NCBI GenBank assembly: GCA_030426355.1
Contig: JAUHYQ010000001.1
Span: forward strand, 372,001-436,000
DNA from: Gammaproteobacteria bacterium
Lineage (GTDB): Bacteria > Pseudomonadota > Gammaproteobacteria > Steroidobacterales > GCA-2729495
Length of the DNA stretch: 64,000 nucleotides
Direction: 5' to 3'
Position numbers and translations under genes: made by a program. Below are positions 9,555 through 24,949 of this stretch, piece by piece. Below the pieces are notes generated by a model, which was not told the origin of the DNA, did no database searches, and saw nothing but the letters and a program-made list of their open reading frames with translations. Within the stretch, counting starts at the first letter, position 1; each line of letters begins with the position of its first letter.

Positions 9555-11582
9555 TCAAAAGCTAACGCGCGCGCCAACGTGCCACGAACGGCCGGGAAGT
9601 GGCGCGAACTCGGCAATCGATGAGGTGCTCTTGCGGGCATCTTCATCGGCTAGGTTGGTTCCGCGCATGAACAATTCCCACTCGGTCTTACCCACCGGAA
9701 TCTTGTACATAAAGTTCGCATTGACCATGGTATAGGCATCGGTTTTATAGGAACTGATATCGTCCTGTTTAGCGTAGTAAATCACATCAAAACCCGCCGT
9801 CCAGTTGGCACGACCAAAGTCGAGATTGGCGCCCAAACGCCACGGCGGGATGCGCGGCAACTTGTCACCGTTGTCCAATTCGGCATTTACGGTATCGCCG
9901 AACAGCCGCAGGCTGTTGTCGAGCGTGTCAATTGACCACAGCGGAAAGGTAATTGCCGCTTCGGCACCCAGAAACTCGGCACTGTCCTGCGTATAGACGG
10001 CCACCGGCAGGTCGTCCTGCACGGCCCCGGTCAGGTTCTGATAAATATAATCCGAAAAATCATAGCGATAGACGGAGACGTCCCACTGCACATCACCCTC
10101 CGTGCGCCGCCAGCCCAGTTCGATGTTGGTCGCGTCTTCGGTCGTCGCGCTCCCTCCCGGGGTCGCAAGCAGCCCGATTTCGAACTGCCGGGTCGCGATA
10201 TGAGCACCCTCCGAGTACAGCTCTTCCGAATTTGGATTGCGTTGGGTCTGCGACAGGTTGGCAATGAGCTCGCTGCCCCAGCCCGCGTCAGCGTTTGCGC
10301 CCAACGAAAATGACCACGCCGTATTGCTGTATTTCGCCATCGTTGCATTGTCATGCTCGAGATCTTCCACCCGCGCCCCGAACTGCAGCTGCCCCCAGGC
10401 GAAGTCCGCTTCTTCGAGCAGAAAAAGGCCGGTGGCCTTGGTTTCCGTTGGCGTGACGAACGCTTCCTCGCCGACAGCAGAAAACTCGCGGTCATCCAGC
10501 TGGATACCAAACGTGCCCCTTAACCCGGACAACCGACGGTGCACGCCTTCCAACCGCACTTGATACTGTTCGTTATCAAACGTCGTCGCCACCTCGCCGG
10601 ACGGCTCTATTTCTTTGTGCTTGTAATCATTCATTCCCAACACAAAACGCGCCGATTCGAGCGCACCGCCGACAAACCCGTAATTGCCACGTATATCGGT
10701 GCGAACCTGCTCGAGGTCAATGAACGGCCCCTCGTAAGGATCCGGGGTCGGTGGCGGCGGACCGCCCGCGTCTTCTTCAGGCCCGGGCAAACCGTAGGTG
10801 GACTCGTAGACACTGACCGAGCCGCCAAGGTAACCCCGATTCCCGACCCACGAAAGGCCGCCCGCGAATCCATCGGTCTCACTGTAACTGTTGCGCAACA
10901 CACCGCGGGGTTCATCGGCCGGCCGTTCGGCCGGATTTGCTGTCGCAAAACCAGCAATGTCCACGTTTTCCGTTTCACGCGTAAAACCGTCCACATGCCA
11001 GGCGAACGCGCCGACACCGCCGTCCAGACGACCGACCATTGCGCGCTCGTCGGCTGCTGTATCACCGCGGACTTCAATCGCTCCGGAAACAGGCTTTTCA
11101 ACAGGCGTTTTGGGAATTCGACTGTCGACGACATTCACAATGCCACCCGCCGCCGTACTCCCGTATAACAAAGTCGCCGGCCCGCGAATCACTTCGATCT
11201 GATCGGCGAGCAACACCTCGATGGCGATCGCGTGATCCGGACTGACGTCGGACACATCCAGTGCCGATGCCGAATCGGTCAACATCGTTACGCGCGAACC
11301 GCTCAGGCCACGAATGATCGGCCGGCTCGCGGCAGGACCAAAGTAACTGCTGCTCAGGCCGAGTTCGTTCGCCAGCGTTTCGCCCAGCGTAGGCGCGTTC
11401 TTGCGCAACAGTTCATCGCCGCTCAGCACCTGGGTGGGCTGCAGCCAATCGGCTAAAGGTGCGGCAGTAACGGTGATTTCGTCAGTGGTTGTAGTGCTGC
11501 GGGCCGGGGTATCGGCCGATACGGCAGGTGCGCTGAATACAGCGAGACACGCTGCCATCGCAACTGGAGAGATTGTGTGCAT
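9555..11582 (-). CDS. TonB-dependent outer-membrane receptor, ZnuD-like
   Basis: This 675-residue outer-membrane protein has a signal peptide (cleavage near SADTP), a TonB box (DEITVTA), a plug domain of about 120 residues (SRPIIRGLSGSRVTMLTD and VIRGPATLLYGS) and a beta-barrel ending in the typical terminal Phe (VGARVSF). The plug most resembles the ZnuD group, which takes up zinc and sometimes haem. A small protein with a His/Cys motif encoded just upstream fits a metal role. The His-rich extracellular loop of classical ZnuD is not seen; instead there is a Pro/Glu-rich loop around residue 275. The substrate is therefore inferred, not shown. Confidence 0.88.
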   Translation of the reverse strand: MHTISPVAMAACLAVFSAPAVSADTPARSTTTTDEITVTAAPLADWLQPTQVLSGDELLRKNAPTLGETLANELGLSSSYFGPAASRPIIRGLSGSRVTMLTDSASALDVSDVSPDHAIAIEVLLADQIEVIRGPATLLYGSTAAGGIVNVVDSRIPKTPVEKPVSGAIEVRGDTAADERAMVGRLDGGVGAFAWHVDGFTRETENVDIAGFATANPAERPADEPRGVLRNSYSETDGFAGGLSWVGNRGYLGGSVSVYESTYGLPGPEEDAGGPPPPTPDPYEGPFIDLEQVRTDIRGNYGFVGGALESARFVLGMNDYKHKEIEPSGEVATTFDNEQYQVRLEGVHRRLSGLRGTFGIQLDDREFSAVGEEAFVTPTETKATGLFLLEEADFAWGQLQFGARVEDLEHDNATMAKYSNTAWSFSLGANADAGWGSELIANLSQTQRNPNSEELYSEGAHIATRQFEIGLLATPGGSATTEDATNIELGWRRTEGDVQWDVSVYRYDFSDYIYQNLTGAVQDDLPVAVYTQDSAEFLGAEAAITFPLWSIDTLDNSLRLFGDTVNAELDNGDKLPRIPPWRLGANLDFGRANWTAGFDVIYYAKQDDISSYKTDAYTMVNANFMYKIPVGKTEWELFMRGTNLADEDARKSTSSIAEFAPLPGRSWHVGARVSF

Positions 11583-12016: not shown

Positions 12017-12044
12017 TGGGGTCAGAGTAACGACTCTGACCCCA
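12017..12044. repeat. REP palindrome at the 3' end of pdsS
   Basis: This is the cleanest copy of the family: TGGGGTCAGAGT and ACTCTGACCCCA as perfect arms around AACG. The histidine kinase gene ends inside it and takes its last residues, VGSESLL, and its stop codon from the repeat. Confidence 0.9.
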
Positions 12045-14103
12045 CTGATTGCAGGGTGACGGTAACAACGACGCCGGCGGCGTCGGGCCGGTTGCGGGCG
12101 ACGACGCGTCCATGATGAAACGCGGCGATCAGGCGCACAATGGTCAGCCCCAACCCCAGATGCAAATTCTCGCCGCGCCCTTCGCGCACCGAGACCATCG
12201 ACTCAAACAGTTCGTCGTCCATGCCGGCGGGCAACGGCGGGCCGTCATTCTCCACCGCCAACAACGCCGTGCCGTTCTCGCGCCACATTCGAAAACGAAT
12301 GGCGCTGCCTTCGACACAAAAATCCCGCGCGTTATCCATCAGCTTGTCGAGCATCTGCGCAATCAACTCCGGACAACCGTCAAGCACGACGTCGCCGTCG
12401 GGCAGCTCCAGTTCAATTCGCTGCCCAGGCCAGGCGGATTGGTATCCGGCAACGATGTCGCGCGTCAATTCGCTCAGATCCAGCCGCTCCCGCTCGGCAC
12501 TCTGGATGGCCTGCTCCACCCGGCTGGCCTCGCTGAGCGCGGTCAGAATGTGTGACAGCCGCTCGCTGCCGCCGCGCGCCCGCGCCACGTATGCCTGCGC
12601 CGCCGCGTTCAGTTCTTCATGCTGCAGGTTATCCAGCGAACTGCTGACCACCGCCAGCGGCGTGCGCAGTTCATGGGAGAGTTTGGACGCCAGCGACTGC
12701 AGGTAATCCGTGTAACCGCGCACCCGGCCGAGCAAACGCCCGAAGTTGCGGCCCAGCGTGCCGATTTCATCGCCCGCCGTTTGTTCCGGAAACGCGCGCA
12801 ACTCGCGACCCTGCGGCTCCATCACGGTCATGACCTGCGCGCTTAAGCGTCGCACGCGCTGCGACAGCCAGGTCGCGTAGCCGACCAGCACCAGCACGAT
12901 CAGCAGCGTCACCAGCGCGGCAATGCCGATCACGTTCACCAGCGTTGAACTGGTGCGCGACAACGAACCGCGGCTGCTGGTTTCCAGCACCGCGACACCC
13001 ACCGGATTGCCGGCGCGATCGCTGATGCGCACCGCCGACGTCACGACGGCCGCGTCCGCCGGTTCGCTTGCGTAGTCACCGTCTTCCCGGCCGAGCACGT
13101 ACCAGCCGGAAGCGCCGCCCGCCGGGGACGTCAGCGCACTGTCCACTTCCTGACGCAGCAGGCGCCCACCGGCCGGCGGCACGTATGGACGGCTTTCCTG
13201 CTGAAAGCTGACGACGCGTCGATACAGGTTTTCGAGCAACCAGAAAGCCGGCGGCCGGTCGATGCCCTGACGAAAATCCGCGCCGCCTTTGGACGCCCGT
13301 ATCCAACCGTTTGCATCCACCAGCGTCACGTTCACGTTGCTGGAAAAATGCCGCAGACTGCTCTCGAGTAACTCGCTGCGCCGATACAGGTACGCGGGTT
13401 CGCCGGCGGCGTTCAAGGTACTCACTTCGGTCGCGGTGCTGGCGTCGTACACGCGCACCCCGAAATGCTCACCCAGCCAGCTGCGCGGCAACGACACCTC
13501 GACGCGATAGCCGTCGGCCTCGTCATGCCACCACGCCGCGTTGCCGTACTGCGCGATCAGCCGTTCACCCTGCAACCGCTCGGCGGTAAACGCGCCGGCA
13601 GCGCCCGGCGCCAGAAACAAGCGGCGCCGATCGTCCGACTCGCCCATCACCAGTTCGACGTGATCAAAGCCATCGTCGGCACGACTCGTCAGCCCGCGCT
13701 TGCGCAGTGACGGCCGGTTGAACTGCAGGTACACATACACGCGATCGCCGATCGCACTGAGGATGACGCGCGCCTCGGCCGCGGGGTCAGTGCCGGTGAT
13801 GCGTAGTGCCTCGGTGTCGATATTCAGTTGCTCGTCGGGATAACCGTCGATCTCAAAACCGCGGTCGCGATCCGTAAACAGGTAAAGACTCTGCGCCCCC
13901 GGCACCTCGGCCGCGGGTTCAAGCGCGTTAACCAGGGCCGCCTGCCCTTCGATGTACGCGGCGACCGAACCGGCAAACTTGCCGAGCATGTCCTGCTCGC
14001 CGTCGCGCAGCGTGTTCTCCATCTCGGCCACGTACTCGCAGCCGGCCCACGGCAGCAGCAACGCCACCAGGCTCACCACCACCAGCTGCGCCCGCAACTT
14101 CAC
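12022..14103 (-). CDS. pdsS: Dedicated sortase system sensor histidine kinase PdsS
   Basis: This is a 693-residue inner-membrane sensor kinase. It has an N-terminal signal-anchor helix, a large periplasmic part of about 370 residues, a second membrane helix near residue 385, a HAMP-like linker, a HisKA domain with phospho-acceptor His477 in LSHELRTPL, and an ATPase domain with Asn591 (DNARD) and GLGLTIV. The start MKLRAQLVVVSLVALLLPWAGCEYV is distinctive for the kinase of the proteobacterial dedicated sortase system. It begins with GTG overlapping the pdsR stop by 4 bases, so kinase and regulator are translationally coupled. The last seven residues, GSESLL with the preceding Val, come from a REP element. 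Confidence 0.92.
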   Translation of the reverse strand: MKLRAQLVVVSLVALLLPWAGCEYVAEMENTLRDGEQDMLGKFAGSVAAYIEGQAALVNALEPAAEVPGAQSLYLFTDRDRGFEIDGYPDEQLNIDTEALRITGTDPAAEARVILSAIGDRVYVYLQFNRPSLRKRGLTSRADDGFDHVELVMGESDDRRRLFLAPGAAGAFTAERLQGERLIAQYGNAAWWHDEADGYRVEVSLPRSWLGEHFGVRVYDASTATEVSTLNAAGEPAYLYRRSELLESSLRHFSSNVNVTLVDANGWIRASKGGADFRQGIDRPPAFWLLENLYRRVVSFQQESRPYVPPAGGRLLRQEVDSALTSPAGGASGWYVLGREDGDYASEPADAAVVTSAVRISDRAGNPVGVAVLETSSRGSLSRTSSTLVNVIGIAALVTLLIVLVLVGYATWLSQRVRRLSAQVMTVMEPQGRELRAFPEQTAGDEIGTLGRNFGRLLGRVRGYTDYLQSLASKLSHELRTPLAVVSSSLDNLQHEELNAAAQAYVARARGGSERLSHILTALSEASRVEQAIQSAERERLDLSELTRDIVAGYQSAWPGQRIELELPDGDVVLDGCPELIAQMLDKLMDNARDFCVEGSAIRFRMWRENGTALLAVENDGPPLPAGMDDELFESMVSVREGRGENLHLGLGLTIVRLIAAFHHGRVVARNRPDAAGVVVTVTLQSVGSESLL

Positions 14104-14804
14104 CCGGGATCGGCTCCCTGCCAGCTGTAGCCGGTGCCATAATGCACCCGCACCGGGTTGCAGTCGGGATCGACATCCCGGAAGGCTTTGCGAATGTGCT
14201 TTATATAAGAGCTGACGCTTTCGGGCTCGATGGTCTTGTCGGCCGCGTCCATGAGTTGTTCACGACTTTTGATGTGCCCCGGCCGCTGCGCCAGGCACTC
14301 GAGCATACGAAACTGCGTAAAGGTCAGCACAACCTCCCGGTCGCGCCACCACACCTGCATGCGATCCAGGTTCATGCGCAGCGGTGGCTGGTTGATCTCA
14401 GTGGGCGCCGGTGCGTCGGTGGCCATTAACGCGTCGAACATCTTAAAGAGGCTGTTGACCCGCGTGGTAATGATCGGCAGCGACAAGCGTTTCGACAGAT
14501 AGTCGTTGGCACCGAGATTCAGCCCGATGATTTCGTCCAGCTCGCTGTCGAGCGCGGTCAGAAAAAGGATGGGCAATATCGGCGAGCGCACCCGCAACTC
14601 GCGGCACAACTCCCGACCGCCTTCAATGTCGTCGCCCAGCTGAATATCAATAATCGCCATGTCCGGCAGGGACTGCGCAAACGCCTGCTGCGCCGACGAG
14701 CGATCCGGATAAATGTCGACGGCGTAGTGCAGACGCTCGAGCGCAGCTTTGTAGTTCTGCGCCAGATCGGCTTCGTCCTCAATAATGGCGATACGCCGTG
14801 GCAT
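14100..14804 (-). CDS. pdsR: Dedicated sortase system response regulator PdsR
   Basis: This 234-residue regulator has an OmpR/PhoB layout: a receiver domain (residues 3-120, phospho-acceptor Asp53 in IIDIQLGDD) and a C-terminal winged-helix DNA-binding domain (about 140-230, ending in VHYGTGYSW). Its gene precedes and overlaps the pdsS gene by 4 bases. It presumably adjusts expression of the divergent sortase and target genes and of pdsO in response to a signal sensed by PdsS. The target promoters were not identified. Confidence 0.92.
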   Translation of the reverse strand: MPRRIAIIEDEADLAQNYKAALERLHYAVDIYPDRSSAQQAFAQSLPDMAIIDIQLGDDIEGGRELCRELRVRSPILPILFLTALDSELDEIIGLNLGANDYLSKRLSLPIITTRVNSLFKMFDALMATDAPAPTEINQPPLRMNLDRMQVWWRDREVVLTFTQFRMLECLAQRPGHIKSREQLMDAADKTIEPESVSSYIKHIRKAFRDVDPDCNPVRVHYGTGYSWQGADPG

Positions 14805-14851
14805 GCGGTTCCTCCCGGGTCAGCGCCGTAAAAATAGCATCATTCCCGCAT

Positions 14852-14877
14852 AAAAAACGGGGGAGCCAGGCTCCCCC
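14852..14877 (-). terminator. Rho-independent terminator of pdsO
   Basis: A perfect 9-base-pair stem, GGGGGAGCC / GGCTCCCCC with a 1-base centre, is followed on the minus strand by six T residues. It lies 52 bases after the pdsO stop and just upstream of pdsR, so pdsO and pdsRS are separate transcripts. Confidence 0.88.
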
Positions 14878-14928
14878 GAAGTTCTCGCAGTCACGCGGCA
14901 ATGCTGCATGGACAAGCTTCGCGACAAT

Positions 14929-15693
14929 TCAGCGGGCGTCCGCCAGACTCAGGTCGTCGGCCGGCGGCAGCAGTGCGATGTCAACGCGGCGCTCCAGCGC
15001 GTAGCTGTCGAGATCATCGACGGCCGCGCTCGACAGACTCTCGCCGTAGGCAGCGGTATCGATGCGCGCGGCAGCCACGCCCTGCTGCTGCAGTAATTCC
15101 GCCACGCTGGCAACGCGCTCGGCCGACAACGCATCGTTGTAAGGCTCGTCACCGCGGGGGTCAGAGTAACCGCTGAGGCGCACGCGCAATTCCGGCTGCC
15201 GCTGCAGCAACTGCGCGAGTTGCTCGATGCGTTCGGCACTGTCGGCAGCCAGCGCTCCCTGTCCGGTGCGGAACAACACCTGCCATTGCAAAGTCTCGGC
15301 AGCCAGCCGCTGCAACTCGCTGACTTCGTGGCCGACGTTGGTGAGGCGCGCCTGCAGTTGATGGTTGGCAGATTGCAACTCGGCCAGTGAGGCCGTGGCC
15401 TGTTCGAGTGATGTTTGGTTTTCATAGCCGTCGATGACCCTGTTGCCGACCCAGTTGCCCGTCAGCATGCCGACGGCATAGCCCGCGGGACCGGCGAGCA
15501 AAGCCCCGGCGATGGCATGACTCAACGTGATGGCCGCGCGTGTGCCGTCATAGGCGTTGTTGTTGTCGGAAGTAGCGTCAGGTTGACGTTCCGGCCCCTG
15601 CGCCGCGCCGGCCCCGCTGCCGGCGAACATCATTGCGATCAAACCGGCGGCAGCCAGCCGCCTCATTGCGGGTCGTGTCGTTACTGTCTTCAT
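14929..15693 (-). CDS. pdsO: Sortase-system OmpA-family protein PdsO
   Basis: This 254-residue protein has a signal peptide (cleavage near AGAAQ), a glycine-rich hydrophobic stretch around residues 60-85, a helical region around 95-125 and a C-terminal OmpA domain that binds peptidoglycan (LSGYSDPRGDEPYN and LSAERVASVAELL). This order is that of PdsO, the OmpA-like companion of the proteobacterial dedicated sortase system. ATG 15693 was chosen because AGGAG lies 8 bases upstream; an ORF start at 15804 has no such support. It probably sits in the outer periplasm or outer membrane and may organise the sorted protein. It is divergent from the target gene and ends in a strong terminator. Confidence 0.9.
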   Translation of the reverse strand: MKTVTTRPAMRRLAAAGLIAMMFAGSGAGAAQGPERQPDATSDNNNAYDGTRAAITLSHAIAGALLAGPAGYAVGMLTGNWVGNRVIDGYENQTSLEQATASLAELQSANHQLQARLTNVGHEVSELQRLAAETLQWQVLFRTGQGALAADSAERIEQLAQLLQRQPELRVRLSGYSDPRGDEPYNDALSAERVASVAELLQQQGVAAARIDTAAYGESLSSAAVDDLDSYALERRVDIALLPPADDLSLADAR

Positions 15694-15909
15694 GGTTGTG
15701 CTCCTGTGTGCATAGCGTGTGTCGAAGTGAACAAACGAGTGCCATGAAAACGCAGCAGTCGGGTGAAAGCGGGTACGAATTCGGGCAAAGCCGGGGCGGT
15801 TCACGTCATTGCCCGAATTCGCCCGAATTGTTCCCCGGGCCTGCCCGAGTCGGGGCGTTCAATGGCATGCGTGTTCAACAGCGTTGCCAACCCGACCCGG
15901 AGATTCGTT

Positions 15910-17946
15910 ATGCACGCCATTAACCCGATCCATAAGCCCGTGACGTGGCTGCTCACCGCGGCACTGCAGGCTTTGCTGCTGCTGTGTCTGACCTTGCCGC
16001 TGAGTGCGGCACGCGCCCTGACCCTCGACGAAGTCGGTGCCGGCGAACTGTTATTCAAGCGCGGCACTGAATGGCAACCGTCGCTGCGACTTGGCACCCG
16101 CGTCGACATACAGGTCAGCGGCATGGTCGCGCGTGTCACCGTCGAACAGCGTTTTCAGAACCCGAATCCGGAATGGGCCGAAGGCAGCTACGTGTTTCCG
16201 CTGCCGGAAACCGCGGCCGTCGCGGAGATGCGCATCACCGTGGACGATCGCGTGATTGTTGGTGAGATACACGAAAAGCAGGCCGCGCAGCAGATCTACA
16301 ACGATGCCAAAGCCGCCGGACAACGCGCGGCCCTGCTGGAACAAAACCAGCCGAATTTATTCCGCACGCGCGTCGCCAATCTCGGCCCCGACCAGGAGAT
16401 CAGCGTCACGCTCGTGTACCTGGAAAAACTCGCTTACCAAAGCGGCGAGTTCAGCCTGCGCTTGCCGATGACCGTGACCGAGCGCTTTGACCCGTATACA
16501 GAGCTGCGGGCGAGCGGCGAAATGGCGCCGCTGGACAACGACGCCGAACCGCATTTCGCAGCCTCCAACGCACCGCGCAACCCGGTGCAAATCACCGCGC
16601 GCATCGATGCCGGCATGGCGCTGGCCGAAATCCGCAGCCCGTCGCACCCGGTGCACATCGAAGCGGCGCCCGTTTCACAAGCTTCTCAAGCGGAGACCAC
16701 CGCGTACAACGTGGCGCTGGCCAACAACGTCGTGCCGATGGATCGCGACTTTGTGCTGCGCTGGCGGCCGACACCGGGCACCGCACCGCGGGCCGCGCTG
16801 TTTGCCGAGACCATTGATGACGCAACCTACGCCATGCTGATGGTGGTTCCGCCGGATGTCGGCCGCAGCACGCAGGGCCTCGGCCGCGAAGTGATTTTTG
16901 TTGTCGATACGTCGGGCTCCATGCAAGGCCAGTCCATCGAAGCTGCGCGGCAGGCACTCGGTTCGGCGCTGCGCACGCTGGAACGTGACGACCGCTTCAA
17001 CATCATTGCGTTCGACGACCAGACGGTGAAACTGTTTAGTCAGGCACAGCTTGCCGCGGGCAGTTATTTGCAGGACGGCTGGGAATTTGTGAACCGCTTG
17101 CAGGCCGGCGGGGGCACCCGGATGGAACCGGCGCTGCGTGCGGCCCTCGACGGCCAGCCGGAGCTCGCCAAAGGCGCGGTGCGCCAGGTGATCTTTATTA
17201 CCGACGGGGCCGTCGGTAATGGCGACGAACTGTTCCGGCTGATCGACCGCAAGCTCGGACAAAGCCGGCTGTTCACCGTCGGCATCGGCAGTGCGCCCAA
17301 CAGTCACTTTATGCGCAAGGCTGCGCAGTTCGGACGCGGCAGTTTTACGTACATCGCGAACACCGCCGAAGCGCAGCACGAAATGACCGCGCTGTTCGAC
17401 AAACTGGCCGCGCCGCAACTGAGCAACCTCAGTGTCAACTGGTCGGGCACGGCGGAGATGTTTCCGGCTCGCGTGCCGGACCTGTACGCCGGGGAACCGC
17501 TGGTGGTGACGGCGCAATTAACGGACAGTGCCGCACCGCTGCGCGTGAGCATTGCGGACGGCAACGACCAGTGGCGTGAAGAGCTGCGCCTGCCGTCGGT
17601 GACGGCGCATCCCGGCGTCGGCACATTATGGGCGCGCGACAAACTCGAAGCCCTTTACGATCAAATTACCGAGCACGGCGAATCCGATACCGTGCGCGAT
17701 GCCATCGTCGCGATCGGCCTGCGCCATAAACTGGTCAGCCGCTACACCAGTTTCGTCGCGGTGGAACAAACACCCGTGCGCCCGGCTGAAGCGCCTGTGC
17801 TCAGCAGCCGCGTCCCCAATGCCCGGCCCGCCGGACAGGTGCTGGCACTGCCGCAAACCGATGCCGGCACGTACTCGAGCCTGCTGTTCGGCGCACTGAG
17901 CCTGCTGCTGGCGCTGGTTATCGCACGGTCGCGGGTGCAGGCATGA
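15910..17946 (+). CDS. Sortase target protein with VIT and VWA domains
   Basis: This 678-residue exported protein is the dedicated substrate of the adjacent sortase. It has a signal peptide (through about residue 34), a VIT domain (about 45-170, typical of inter-alpha-trypsin inhibitor-like proteins) and a VWA domain whose metal site starts at DTSGS (333-337). The C-terminal sorting signal is LPQTDAG at 647-653, then a hydrophobic helix and the basic tail ARSRVQA. The motif departs from LPxTG by having Asp after Thr, as allowed in this family. The start at ATG 15910 has a GGAG site and gives a normal signal peptide. The stop overlaps the sortase start by 4 bases. Confidence 0.93.
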   Translation: MHAINPIHKPVTWLLTAALQALLLLCLTLPLSAARALTLDEVGAGELLFKRGTEWQPSLRLGTRVDIQVSGMVARVTVEQRFQNPNPEWAEGSYVFPLPETAAVAEMRITVDDRVIVGEIHEKQAAQQIYNDAKAAGQRAALLEQNQPNLFRTRVANLGPDQEISVTLVYLEKLAYQSGEFSLRLPMTVTERFDPYTELRASGEMAPLDNDAEPHFAASNAPRNPVQITARIDAGMALAEIRSPSHPVHIEAAPVSQASQAETTAYNVALANNVVPMDRDFVLRWRPTPGTAPRAALFAETIDDATYAMLMVVPPDVGRSTQGLGREVIFVVDTSGSMQGQSIEAARQALGSALRTLERDDRFNIIAFDDQTVKLFSQAQLAAGSYLQDGWEFVNRLQAGGGTRMEPALRAALDGQPELAKGAVRQVIFITDGAVGNGDELFRLIDRKLGQSRLFTVGIGSAPNSHFMRKAAQFGRGSFTYIANTAEAQHEMTALFDKLAAPQLSNLSVNWSGTAEMFPARVPDLYAGEPLVVTAQLTDSAAPLRVSIADGNDQWREELRLPSVTAHPGVGTLWARDKLEALYDQITEHGESDTVRDAIVAIGLRHKLVSRYTSFVAVEQTPVRPAEAPVLSSRVPNARPAGQVLALPQTDAGTYSSLLFGALSLLLALVIARSRVQA

Positions 17947-18551
17947 AACGCGAATTTCTGACGCTGGTCATGGCAGGACTCGTCGCGGTCGGACTCTGGC
18001 AATTCGGCAACGCGGGCGTCATTCAGGCCAAAGCCTGGCTGGCACCGAAACTGATTGAACGGGCCTGGCAACGCACACTGGATGAACGCAAACCGGTGCG
18101 CCCGTGGCCGTGGGCCGACACCTGGCCGGTGGCGCGCTTACAAGTGCCGGCACTGGGCATTGAACGCTACGTGCTGGCCGGTGCCAACGGCGGTTCACTG
18201 CCGTTCGGCCCCGGTCACGTCGACGGCAGCGCCCTGCCTGGCGACCCGGGCAGCGTGATCATTGCCGGCCACCGCGACACGCATTTCGGCTTTTTACGCG
18301 ATGTGCGCCCCGGCGCACTGCTGCGCCTGACCGACATGTATGGCTACGAAACCGAGTTTGAAACCGTCACGCAGGAAATCGTCGATGCACGCCTGCACGG
18401 CATCAGCCCCCTGCAGAGCGGCTCCGAACTGGTACTGATCACCTGCGAACCCACCGACAACCTGCCCTTTCGCGGACCCTATAGGCTGGTGGTGGTAGCG
18501 ACAGGCATTGCAGCGGGGCGGCTGGATGCGGGTGGGTCGGATGGTGCATAG
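17943..18551 (+). CDS. Class GN sortase
   Basis: This 202-residue transpeptidase is anchored by an N-terminal helix (residues 5-25). The sortase active site is complete: His110 in AGHRDTHF, Cys168 in LITCEPTD and Arg181 in GPYRLVVVA. It belongs to the Gram-negative sortases that usually serve a single target, here the VIT/VWA protein encoded immediately upstream with a 4-base overlap. It should cleave the LPQTD motif. What nucleophile accepts the target in a Gram-negative envelope is not known from the sequence. Confidence 0.94.
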   Translation: MKREFLTLVMAGLVAVGLWQFGNAGVIQAKAWLAPKLIERAWQRTLDERKPVRPWPWADTWPVARLQVPALGIERYVLAGANGGSLPFGPGHVDGSALPGDPGSVIIAGHRDTHFGFLRDVRPGALLRLTDMYGYETEFETVTQEIVDARLHGISPLQSGSELVLITCEPTDNLPFRGPYRLVVVATGIAAGRLDAGGSDGA

Positions 18552-22526: not shown

Positions 22527-22608
22527 CAAAAACAATTAACCCCTTTTGCCGGAGCCCGACGTTTATAGCTTTACGACCCCTGATACCGGGGCAAACAAGG
22601 AGAGCGTC

Positions 22609-24393
22609 ATGAAAACCGCAACCGCAATGCTGGAACTGCTGGCCGACTATGTGTCCGCCACCCTTTTTCTGTCTGTCGCAGCACTGGTACTGGTCACCGG
22701 CTGTTTAAGCCAAACCGAAAACCGCGAGGAAGCCAACTATAGGGTTGCCCGACCCACCCCGGCCGACGAGATCGTGGTTACCACAAGCAAACGCGCGGGC
22801 AGCGCCGAGGAAGTCGCCCTGTACGCACCGCGCGCACAGGCGCTGGGCAGCCGCGCTCAGCAGGCGGATATGGCGCTTATGGACTATGAGCTTTACGCCG
22901 GTTCACTGCGCCAGCCATCGGAACCACTGAACCGCGAGAATTACGCCCACGATGAGCGCAATCCGGTAAAACGCGTCAGCGAAGAGCCGGTTTCGACCTT
23001 CAGCATCGACGTCGACACCGGCGCGTATGCGAACGTGCGGCGTATGCTGAATCACGGCTCACTGCCACCGCAAGATGCCGTGCGCGTCGAAGAGCTGATC
23101 AATTATTTTTCGTACAACTACAAACAGCCCGACAACATCGACACGCCCTTCAGCATCAACATGGAACTGGCCCCCACGCCGTGGAACGCCGACACCCATC
23201 TGCTGCAGATCGGCTTGCAGGGTTATCACATCGAAGCCGCCGAGCGCCCGGCGGCCAACCTGGTCTTTCTGCTTGATGTGTCGGGTTCGATGAGCGACCC
23301 CGACAAGTTGCCGCTGCTGAAACGTTCGTTCAGTTTGCTCACCCGGCAAATGACCGCCGCCGACCGGATTTCCATTGTGGTCTATGCGGGCGCCAGCGGA
23401 GTGGTGCTGGAACCCACCCCGGGCAATAAAAAGGCCACCATCCACGCCGCGCTGGATCGGCTGGCTGCCGGCGGCAGCACCAACGGCGCAGCGGGTATCG
23501 ACCTCGCCTACCGGATGGCTCAGCAGGGCTTTATCAAGCACGGCATAAACCGCGTCGTGCTGGCCACCGACGGCGACTTTAACGTCGGCACCGTCAGTTT
23601 CGAGTCGCTGATCGACATGGTTGAGGAACGCCGCGAACAGGGCATTTCTCTCACCACGCTCGGCTTCGGCACCGGCAACTATAACGATCATTTGATGGAG
23701 CAACTGGCCAACAAAGGTAACGGCAACTACGCCTACATCGACAATCTCAATGAAGCCCGTAAAGTTCTGGTGGACGAGCTGAGCTCCACGCTGCAGACCA
23801 TCGCCAAGGATGTAAAGATTCAGGTGGAATTCAATCCGCGTGTCGTCGCCGAGTACCGGCTGATCGGCTACGAGAATCGCATGCTGAGACGCGAGGATTT
23901 CAACAACGACCGCATTGACGCGGGTGAAATCGGCGCCGGCCACACAGTCACTGCGCTCTATGAAATCAGCCTGACCGGCAGCAAGGGCCAGCTGATGGAT
24001 CCACTGCGCTACACCAACGAGACTGACAAAGCATCGTCAAAACACAACGCGGATGAAGTGGCTTTCGTTCGGCTGCGTTACAAAGACCCCGATGCTGACC
24101 GCAGCCAGTTGATTGAACGAGCCGTGACAAAGTCCGACATCGTTGACCTACGTCAGACCAGCGATGAACTGCGCTTCGCGGCCGCGGTGGCAGCGTTCGG
24201 CCAGCGGCTGCGAGGTGGCGAGTATCTGCAGGACTTTGGTTACGAGGACATTCGCCAGCTGGCTAACCATGCGCGCGGCAAGGACGAGCATGGCTATCGC
24301 GGTGAATTCATCGGCCTGGTAAACCTCGCCGACAGTTTGTCGGTGGGAGCCGACAACGCGTATGCTGCCGGAAATGGCCGCCGAATTGACTGA
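22609..24393 (+). CDS. YfbK-like VWA-domain lipoprotein
   Basis: This 594-residue protein has a lipoprotein signal, LVLVTGC with Cys32 as the probable lipidation site. It then has an N-terminal VWA-associated domain (about 110-205), a VWA domain with metal site DVSGSMS near residue 226, and a C-terminal DUF3520-like region (about 420-590). This is the layout of E. coli YfbK and relatives. Residues 53-62, DEIVVTTSKR, look like the TonB box at the start of TonB-dependent receptors, which is unexpected in a lipoprotein. AGGAG precedes ATG 22609. The end overlaps the sigma factor gene by 32 bases, so the two are co-translated. Confidence 0.86.
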   Translation: MKTATAMLELLADYVSATLFLSVAALVLVTGCLSQTENREEANYRVARPTPADEIVVTTSKRAGSAEEVALYAPRAQALGSRAQQADMALMDYELYAGSLRQPSEPLNRENYAHDERNPVKRVSEEPVSTFSIDVDTGAYANVRRMLNHGSLPPQDAVRVEELINYFSYNYKQPDNIDTPFSINMELAPTPWNADTHLLQIGLQGYHIEAAERPAANLVFLLDVSGSMSDPDKLPLLKRSFSLLTRQMTAADRISIVVYAGASGVVLEPTPGNKKATIHAALDRLAAGGSTNGAAGIDLAYRMAQQGFIKHGINRVVLATDGDFNVGTVSFESLIDMVEERREQGISLTTLGFGTGNYNDHLMEQLANKGNGNYAYIDNLNEARKVLVDELSSTLQTIAKDVKIQVEFNPRVVAEYRLIGYENRMLRREDFNNDRIDAGEIGAGHTVTALYEISLTGSKGQLMDPLRYTNETDKASSKHNADEVAFVRLRYKDPDADRSQLIERAVTKSDIVDLRQTSDELRFAAAVAAFGQRLRGGEYLQDFGYEDIRQLANHARGKDEHGYRGEFIGLVNLADSLSVGADNAYAAGNGRRID

Positions 24394-24949
24394 CACCGCG
24401 TTGATGCTGCGTTATTGCGGCGGTGACATGAGCGCATTCGAAACACTGTACGCCCGTCATCGGGGCCCGCTGTTTCGTTTCGTGCTGCGCCAACTCAATA
24501 ACCCGCAGCTCACCGAAGACGTGTTTCAGGAAATCTGGGCCAAGGTGATTCGCAGTCGCGCTCAGTACCGGCCGACTGCGAAGTTCACCACTTACCTGTA
24601 CAGCATTGCGCGCAACAGCGTTATTGACCAGTACCGCAAGGCCGACCGCGCCGCCGACGTTTCGGTGCCGCAAGATGGCGACATGCCCGAGCCCGAGGCC
24701 ACCACCGATGATCCGTTGCAAACGGCGCATCAGGCGGAACTCGGCGCAACACTAACCGCGGCATTACAAGCACTCCCGCAGGAACAGCTGGAAGCCTTTT
24801 TATTAAAGGAAGAAAGCGGCCTGAGTCTGGAAGAGATTGGCAGCGTGACCGGCGTCAGTCGCGAAACCGTAAAAAGCCGCTTACGGTATGCGTTGAACAA
24901 ATTGCGCACTTGCCTGCCAACCCCCGCCGAGATAAGGATGGATGATTGA
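24362..24949 (+). CDS. ECF-type RNA polymerase sigma factor
   Basis: This 195-residue sigma-70 factor has only regions 2 and 4. Region 2 spans about residues 20-90 (LYARHRGPLFRFVLRQL, DVFQEIWAKV and YLYSIARNSVIDQYRK) and region 4 about 130-185 (LPQEQLEAFLLKEESGLSLEEIGSVTGVSRETVKSRLRYA). It starts within the last 32 bases of the VWA gene. The next gene encodes a one-helix protein of anti-sigma shape. It probably drives this operon or other envelope genes. Confidence 0.92.
   Translation: MLPEMAAELTDTALMLRYCGGDMSAFETLYARHRGPLFRFVLRQLNNPQLTEDVFQEIWAKVIRSRAQYRPTAKFTTYLYSIARNSVIDQYRKADRAADVSVPQDGDMPEPEATTDDPLQTAHQAELGATLTAALQALPQEQLEAFLLKEESGLSLEEIGSVTGVSRETVKSRLRYALNKLRTCLPTPAEIRMDD

Follow-up and report, generated by a model that had tools for sequence, protein, structure and literature searches.

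The dedicated sortase (Pds) system of proteobacteria, which is described by the NCBIfam models TIGR03784, TIGR03785, TIGR03787, TIGR03788 and TIGR03789, comprises a class GN sortase with a single substrate encoded beside it, a sensor kinase (PdsS), a response regulator (PdsR) and PdsO, encoded in a divergent layout. Class GN sortases were called poorly described, with an unknown role, in a 2023 paper (PMC10581121), and a review (PMC12114352) links pdsS and pdsO of Shewanella algae to membrane integrity and β-lactam resistance. In this study, we analyzed a 64,000-nucleotide stretch of a gammaproteobacterial genome (contig JAUHYQ010000001.1, positions 372,001 to 436,000; designated as the window), in which five adjacent genes almost certainly constitute an additional member of this already known kind. 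The locus shares with the described system all components, their order, the divergent layout and the single substrate beside the sortase, but differs in the below-cut-off scores of PdsS, PdsR and PdsO and in an Asp residue at the P1' position of the sorting signal. We propose that the PdsSR-induced sortase ties its target to a periplasmic amine, probably that of the wall, and we tentatively assign this mechanism as a whole a probability of roughly 0.45. Beyond what an initial annotation of the window had claimed, we observed a CBM9-type sensor in PdsS, a conserved operator-like repeat, and the presence of the system in some genomes that lack type II secretion. The features of the locus, in window coordinates, are as follows.

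12022-18551, both strands: whole Pds system, five genes (open reading frames, NCBIfam and domain scans)
12022-14103, minus strand: PdsS, membrane sensor histidine kinase; GTG start; H477 in SHELRTP at 12673-12675
13375-13914, minus strand: predicted CBM9-type beta-sandwich in the periplasmic sensor of PdsS, residues 64-243 (profile match)
14100-14804, minus strand: PdsR, OmpR/CreB-type response regulator with receiver and winged-helix domains
14929-15693, minus strand: PdsO; ATG start (the mechanical open reading frame extends to 15804)
15694-15909: divergent promoter region between pdsO and the target gene, 216 bp
15778-15786, minus strand: lone GCCCGAATT copy in the opposite orientation, facing pdsO
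15809-15829, plus strand: candidate PdsR operator TTGCCCGAATTCGCCCGAATT, a tandem repeat of GCCCGAATT with a period of 10, 80 bases 5' of the target ATG
15910-17946, plus strand: sortase target, VIT/VWA protein; ATG start (mechanical open reading frame from 15763)
17848-17868, plus strand: sorting motif LPQTDAG, codons CTG CCG CAA ACC GAT GCC GGC, with Asp at the expected P1' position
17875-17943, plus strand: hydrophobic stretch and basic tail (SSLLFGALSLLLALVIARSRVQA; tail RSR), 3' of LPQTDAG
17943-18551, plus strand: class GN sortase; membrane helix at residues 2-48, His110 at 18270-18272, Cys168 at 18444-18446 and Arg181 at 18483-18485

The pdsS and pdsR genes overlap by four bases and run leftward together with pdsO, and the target and sortase genes, which also overlap by four bases, run rightward and thus diverge from the pdsS-pdsR-pdsO unit. 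The sortase (186.1 bits, TIGR03784) and the target (692.6 bits, TIGR03788) passed the respective cut-offs of 158.25 and 551.65 bits. The other three proteins scored below theirs: PdsS reached 481.6 of 612.2 bits (TIGR03785), PdsR 257.6 of 335.7 bits (TIGR03787) and PdsO 130.1 of 152.2 bits (TIGR03789). In each case the pds model was still the best match, with the runners-up at 133.9, 143.9 (CreB) and 80.5 bits, respectively. Given that PdsS, PdsR and PdsO of a relative with full five-gene synteny, locus L031, also fall short (572.4, 328 and 121.2 bits against the same cut-offs), the cut-offs appear simply tight for the lineage of the window. With all five genes in place and the pds models as their best matches, the complete dedicated sortase system proposed in the initial annotation is borne out, and its catalytic residues are present, namely H477 of PdsS, DTSGS of the VWA domain, and H110, C168 and R181 of the sortase. 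The genome to which the window belongs has one GN sortase (the search was aimed at the GN class, and other sortase classes were not searched separately) and one VIT/VWA target above the TIGR03788 cut-off; together with the single full-length signal match described below, this agrees with the claim of one substrate.

The target consists of a signal sequence, a VIT domain (E 2e-36), a VWA domain with DTSGS and a C-terminal sorting signal. Its closest solved sequence relatives are PARP4 (E 4e-33) and the inter-alpha-trypsin inhibitor heavy chains, which likewise combine VIT and VWA but are eukaryotic and have no sortase signal. The initial annotation had assigned LPQTDAG as the signal; the motif, helix and basic tail are indeed present, but the sequence is not the regular signal of the family. 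To define the latter, we collected 113 target signals, namely that of the window and those of 112 loci from 60 relatives, from the best 80 of at least 576 confirmed matches in species genomes, and from class genomes. Loci were dropped if their sortase scored below 90 bits, if their target was incomplete or if their tail duplicated another. The signals were registered automatically for 102 and by hand for 11. Position 1 was L in 44, F in 33 and Y in 22 signals; position 2 was P in 95 and A in 15; position 4 was T in 89 and G in 24; position 5 was A in 108, G in 2, S in 2 and D in 1; and position 6 was T in 101. The consensus is thus [LFY]Px[TG]AT, as derived here and not a published family definition. 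The window signal keeps LPQT but has D-A in place of A-T, and it is the only one of the 113 with an acidic P1' residue. The Asp codon is GAT in the assembled sequence (reads unseen), and an assembly error is unlikely.

Because Asp after Thr is unique among the 113 signals, intact processing cannot be assumed. The window copy might be functionally impaired, with Asp blocking the cut and the target staying in the inner membrane, as the presence of Ala, Gly or Ser in all other signals would suggest. We consider this unlikely: none of the five reading frames is interrupted, the sortase retains its catalytic residues, and it falls into a clade whose loop behind Cys168 is changed, the loop reported to set P1' selectivity in class A sortases (PMC8361268). 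Directly after the catalytic Cys, 109 of 113 sortases have an aromatic residue, and Glu or Leu is confined to the window, L031, L033 and L032, which form this one clade and all belong to the family of the window. However, P1' is still Ala in L031, L032 and L033, and the altered loop is therefore not a sufficient explanation for the Asp of the window; a link between the two is a suggestion only. Asp at P1' is a natural test of substrate choice by class GN sortases.

A sorting-signal profile (A4, built on 38 of the 113 signals) gave one full-length match in the window's own genome, which is a self-match by construction, and three others that span the membrane part alone. The idea that sortase-free relatives swap the tail for GlyGly-CTERM or PEP-CTERM was not supported by the second VIT/VWA copies L179-L182 (genomes G042, G056, G044 and G055): their last 60 residues, judged by eye, show no visible tripartite signal, and no GN sortase is nearby.

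Across the 113 aligned sortases, H110 and R181 are invariant and C168 is present in 112. The exception, L049 (a Kiloniellaceae metagenome-assembled genome), has Ser for the catalytic Cys in an otherwise intact GN sortase beside a normal LPRGATPAA signal; it is possibly a natural sortase-dead variant or an assembly error. The AlphaFold model of the window sortase (mean predicted local distance difference test, pLDDT, 92.3; predicted template modelling score, pTM, 0.85) consists of a sortase beta-barrel preceded by one long helix at the N terminus. The closest solved fold is Clostridium perfringens Sortase D5 (4d70; Z 18.6, root-mean-square deviation 2.1, 146 aligned residues), followed by class E folds (Z 17.1, about 16 to 17), matches within 1 Z being counted as tied. 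Despite this likeness in fold, the window sortase stays below the cut-offs, with 54.4 against 165 bits (NF033746) and 55.8 against 140 bits (NF058671) for class D, and 43 against 160 bits (NF033747) for class E. A PWPWADTW stretch behind the helix also sets it apart from classes D and E, being GN-specific. The stretch is near-invariant, with K30, A31, W55, W57, A58 and D59 in 113/113 sortases, and we know of no role for it. No relative of the sortase was found in viral contigs with the patterns that were tried. The sortase model A3 was built on 52 sequences.

OmpR-family regulators of the PdsR type commonly bind direct repeats such as the one in the divergent promoter, and CreB has an operator of the same direct-repeat style (the CreB tag). 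CreC and CreB are the next best families of PdsS and PdsR, respectively; the Pds system differs from CreBC in the CBM9-type insert of PdsS and in having one operator-like site in the genome. The window's form of the repeat occurs at this single genomic site at three or fewer mismatches, and a reversed control pattern at none. The PdsSR regulon therefore looks private, in line with the private two-component system of the initial annotation. A mirrored stretch similar to that formed by the oppositely oriented copy in the window is found in a congener (L177).

We then derived a family repeat, GCCACAATTNGCCACAATT, and compared it with 79 upstream regions, namely those of the 113 loci with more than 150 bases available plus that of L177, with start codons chosen by rule. 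At least 14 of 18 positions matched in 32 of the 79 regions, as opposed to 0.32% of 3160 shuffles. The window repeat itself matches at 14 positions, which none of 40 window shuffles attained. While this shared-sequence test was strong, a generic test for repeats with a 10- or 11-bp period was weak (9/79 regions at 5 or fewer of 100 shuffles). At loci with a divergent regulator, 25 of 48 reached 14/18 in the true divergent region and 23 did not; these 48 include same-contig pairs under two identifiers (L022/L080 and L023/L111), and L089 was left out. The nearest relatives, L031 and L033, score just 12 on the family repeat, although L031 carries a variant of its own that repeats perfectly. The family repeat is also present in Parahaliea (L084), Peristeroidobacter (L063) and others outside Woeseiaceae.

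PdsS contains HisKA, HATPase_c and weak HAMP domains. In its AlphaFold model (mean pLDDT 83.4, pTM 0.58), a beta-sandwich is flanked on one side by a long helix at the N terminus and on the other by a second, mixed domain preceding the second membrane helix. A profile of 27 PdsS sensor stretches (A5) matches the CBM9 PDB chains 7nwn (E 3e-7) and 1i82 (E 0.0013). In single-sequence Pfam searches with 37 PdsS proteins at E of 1 or less, CBM9_1 was found in 4 and dCache_1 in 10; the window PdsS alone gave dCache_1 (E 0.11) and no CBM9_1. Foldseek and VIA searches with the whole PdsS returned kinase domains alone and thus say nothing on the sensor. From the profile comparison, the sensor is predicted to be a CBM9-type carbohydrate-binding domain with Cache-like flanks. 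Among the matches listed in a literature search, none combined CBM9 with a histidine kinase. The PdsS profile A2 was built on 37 sequences. At the PdsS N terminus (window 14035-14103), a lipobox-like LPWAGC ends the first membrane helix; it is common to many PdsS proteins, with Cys changed to Tyr in several.

PdsO has a Sec-type signal sequence (by eye), a glycine-zipper stretch and an OmpA C-terminal domain (PF00691, E 3e-15) with the OmpA-type motif GYSDPRGDEPYNDALSAER. No lipobox Cys was seen in PdsO by eye.

The initial annotation considered the attachment point of the target not to be established, and this holds: no demonstration of the anchor point of GN sortase targets was found in the literature searched. 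The closest parallel in outline is the rhombosortase/GlyGly-CTERM system (TIGR03902), in which a C-terminal motif, helix and basic tail are likewise cut and a new C-terminal group is added, and for which dedicated enzyme-substrate pairs have also been described (PMC3237569). The enzyme, however, is an unrelated rhomboid serine protease, and its product VesB is reported to depend on type II secretion (PMC6219818), which is lacking in some GN-sortase genomes. Following this parallel, the target might be handed to a lipid head-group amine (e.g., that of phosphatidylethanolamine) and the product moved to the surface. In support of such lipid anchoring, a vault-like family is reported in which LPXTG, GlyGly-CTERM and PEP-CTERM tails are interchangeable (PMC3237569), VesB is described as gaining a glycerophosphoethanolamine-containing group and reaching the surface by type II secretion (PMC6219818), and the window's own genome has GspD and GspL matches. 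On the other hand, that genome has no rhombosortase above the cut-off (best E 1.4e-6). In addition, neither a GspD-grade match nor GspL is present in 6 of the 48 class genomes whose GN sortase passes the cut-off (G113, G160, G198, G276, G346 and G420), four of these six being at least 98% complete. We therefore regard lipid anchoring as doubtful.

The six genomes were identified from eight GN-sortase genomes whose best GspD E value was weaker than 1e-60 as judged by eye (G113, G151, G160, G198, G268, G276, G346 and G420). GspD alone was rejected as a marker of type II loss, for it over-calls: G151 and G268 (2/8) have GspL. The sorting signals are normal in four of the type II-negative genomes (G113 = L128, G160 = L142, G276 = L146 and G346 = L126). 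Thus, the GN sortase reaction cannot need the type II route in general, and its product is argued not to need an outer-membrane secretion machine. If so, the simplest source of an acceptor amine is peptidoglycan or lipid II, with which the OmpA domain of PdsO is consistent. Rhombosortase was also searched in the 369 class genomes, many of which carry both this enzyme and a GN sortase.

We thus favor anchoring to a periplasmic amine, which would proceed as follows. PdsS in the inner membrane would read an envelope carbohydrate through its CBM9-type domain and phosphorylate PdsR, which would bind the direct repeat (period of 10 bp) of the divergent promoter and thereby induce pdsO together with the target and sortase genes, but no other noteworthy gene. 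After export, the VIT/VWA target would be kept in the inner membrane by its C-terminal helix until the class GN sortase cuts it after Thr, between LPQT and DAG. The cut target, held as a thioester, would be handed to an amine in the periplasm, for which diaminopimelate in lipid II or in peptidoglycan is the likeliest candidate, while PdsO, by way of its OmpA domain, might hold on to that wall without a covalent bond. Overall, a metal-binding VWA protein would become tied to the wall in a regulated manner. Also in favor of this mechanism are the likeness of PdsS and PdsR to CreC and CreB and the link of the Shewanella algae genes to membrane integrity and β-lactam resistance that the review reports (PMC12114352). 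The gene set, the catalytic residues, the single sortase and target, the CBM9-type sensor, the operator-like repeat (conserved, and single in the genome) and the independence of type II secretion in some relatives are established computationally; the sensed sugar, the binding of PdsR to the repeat, cleavage between Thr and Asp, and the acceptor are what we infer from them. Alternatively, the sortase may act mainly as a protease that frees the target into the periplasm, given the single substrate, the lack of a polymerising pilin partner and the lack of an acceptor gene conserved in all loci; yet the sortase fold and the His-Cys-Arg set are of the transpeptidase type, and a signal peptidase alone would suffice for mere release, which makes this alternative improbable.

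Several points weigh against the favored mechanism. The identity of the acceptor is itself inferred. The Asp at P1', unlike the residues of the other 112 signals (A/G/S), may slow or stop cleavage. The type II test concerns relatives, whereas the window's organism has GspD and GspL matches. A CBM9-type fold, as predicted here, does not prove sugar binding by PdsS. The repeat consensus was drawn from the very loci in which it was counted, many of them close kin, so the counts overstate independence. Many GN sortases have no adjacent PdsO; hence, PdsO is not essential to the reaction. Finally, a srtA deletion in Shewanella oneidensis is reported to have had no effect on current (PMC8176591), and the phenotype may accordingly be small.

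A bolder form of the mechanism is an inducible wall-stapling circuit of a diderm, in which the CBM9-type kinase would read peptidoglycan or another envelope glycan and act through the single operator, the sortase would staple the VWA protein, PdsO would hold the wall, and the lineage would have shifted from Thr-Ala to Thr-Asp cleavage via a rebuilt post-Cys loop; we regard this full version as rather unlikely. The family-wide points (the true signal, the CBM9-type sensor, the operator and the type II independence) are a useful gain, and the findings make the role of sortases in two-membrane bacteria directly testable through the sensor ligand, the one-site operator and the product of the family signal.

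As for distribution, GN sortases above the cut-off were found in 13 of 60 relatives (17 at E of 0.001 or less) and in 48 of 369 class genomes (56 at the same E value). The best 80 of the at least 576 confirmed GN sortase matches in the species-genome scan include Nitrospira, alpha-, beta- and gammaproteobacterial titles. Target and sortase are always together wherever both are visible, the kinase and regulator genes are often divergent, and PdsO, which is present in fewer loci, sometimes precedes the target. Among four genomes of the same genus, one (G002) shares the window's arrangement of target, PdsO, PdsR and PdsS, its contig ending inside the target before the signal. Contigs titled Nitrospira (and one titled Nitrosospira) with a GN sortase and a target include L042, L047, L052, L053, L072, L106, L109 and others; the family takes its name from the Proteobacteria, to which the Nitrospira loci do not belong, and a weak OmpA-type gene often precedes the target there.

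The neighboring genes of the window (exchanger, patatin, ZnuD-like receptor and M23) were not found beside the systems of relatives, save for weak patatin matches in L029 and L030, within the limited flanks available there, and were therefore left outside the system. The receptor, a TonB-dependent receptor at 9555-11582 just downstream of pdsS, has ZnuD as its best match (363.9 bits, cut-off 950). At 22546-24949, a YfbK-type VWA lipoprotein-like gene is followed by an extracytoplasmic function (ECF) sigma factor gene; only the VWA domain is in common with the sortase target. A sortase pair of another kind was observed, within the same order, at L034:691-1964, L035:8582-9974 and L036:8957-10269. 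These sortases are class D-like (NF058671, 128.9 to 134.5 bits, just below the cut-off of 140), and their small secreted partner ends in LPATAS, LPTTAG or LPATAG, followed by a helix and a basic tail.

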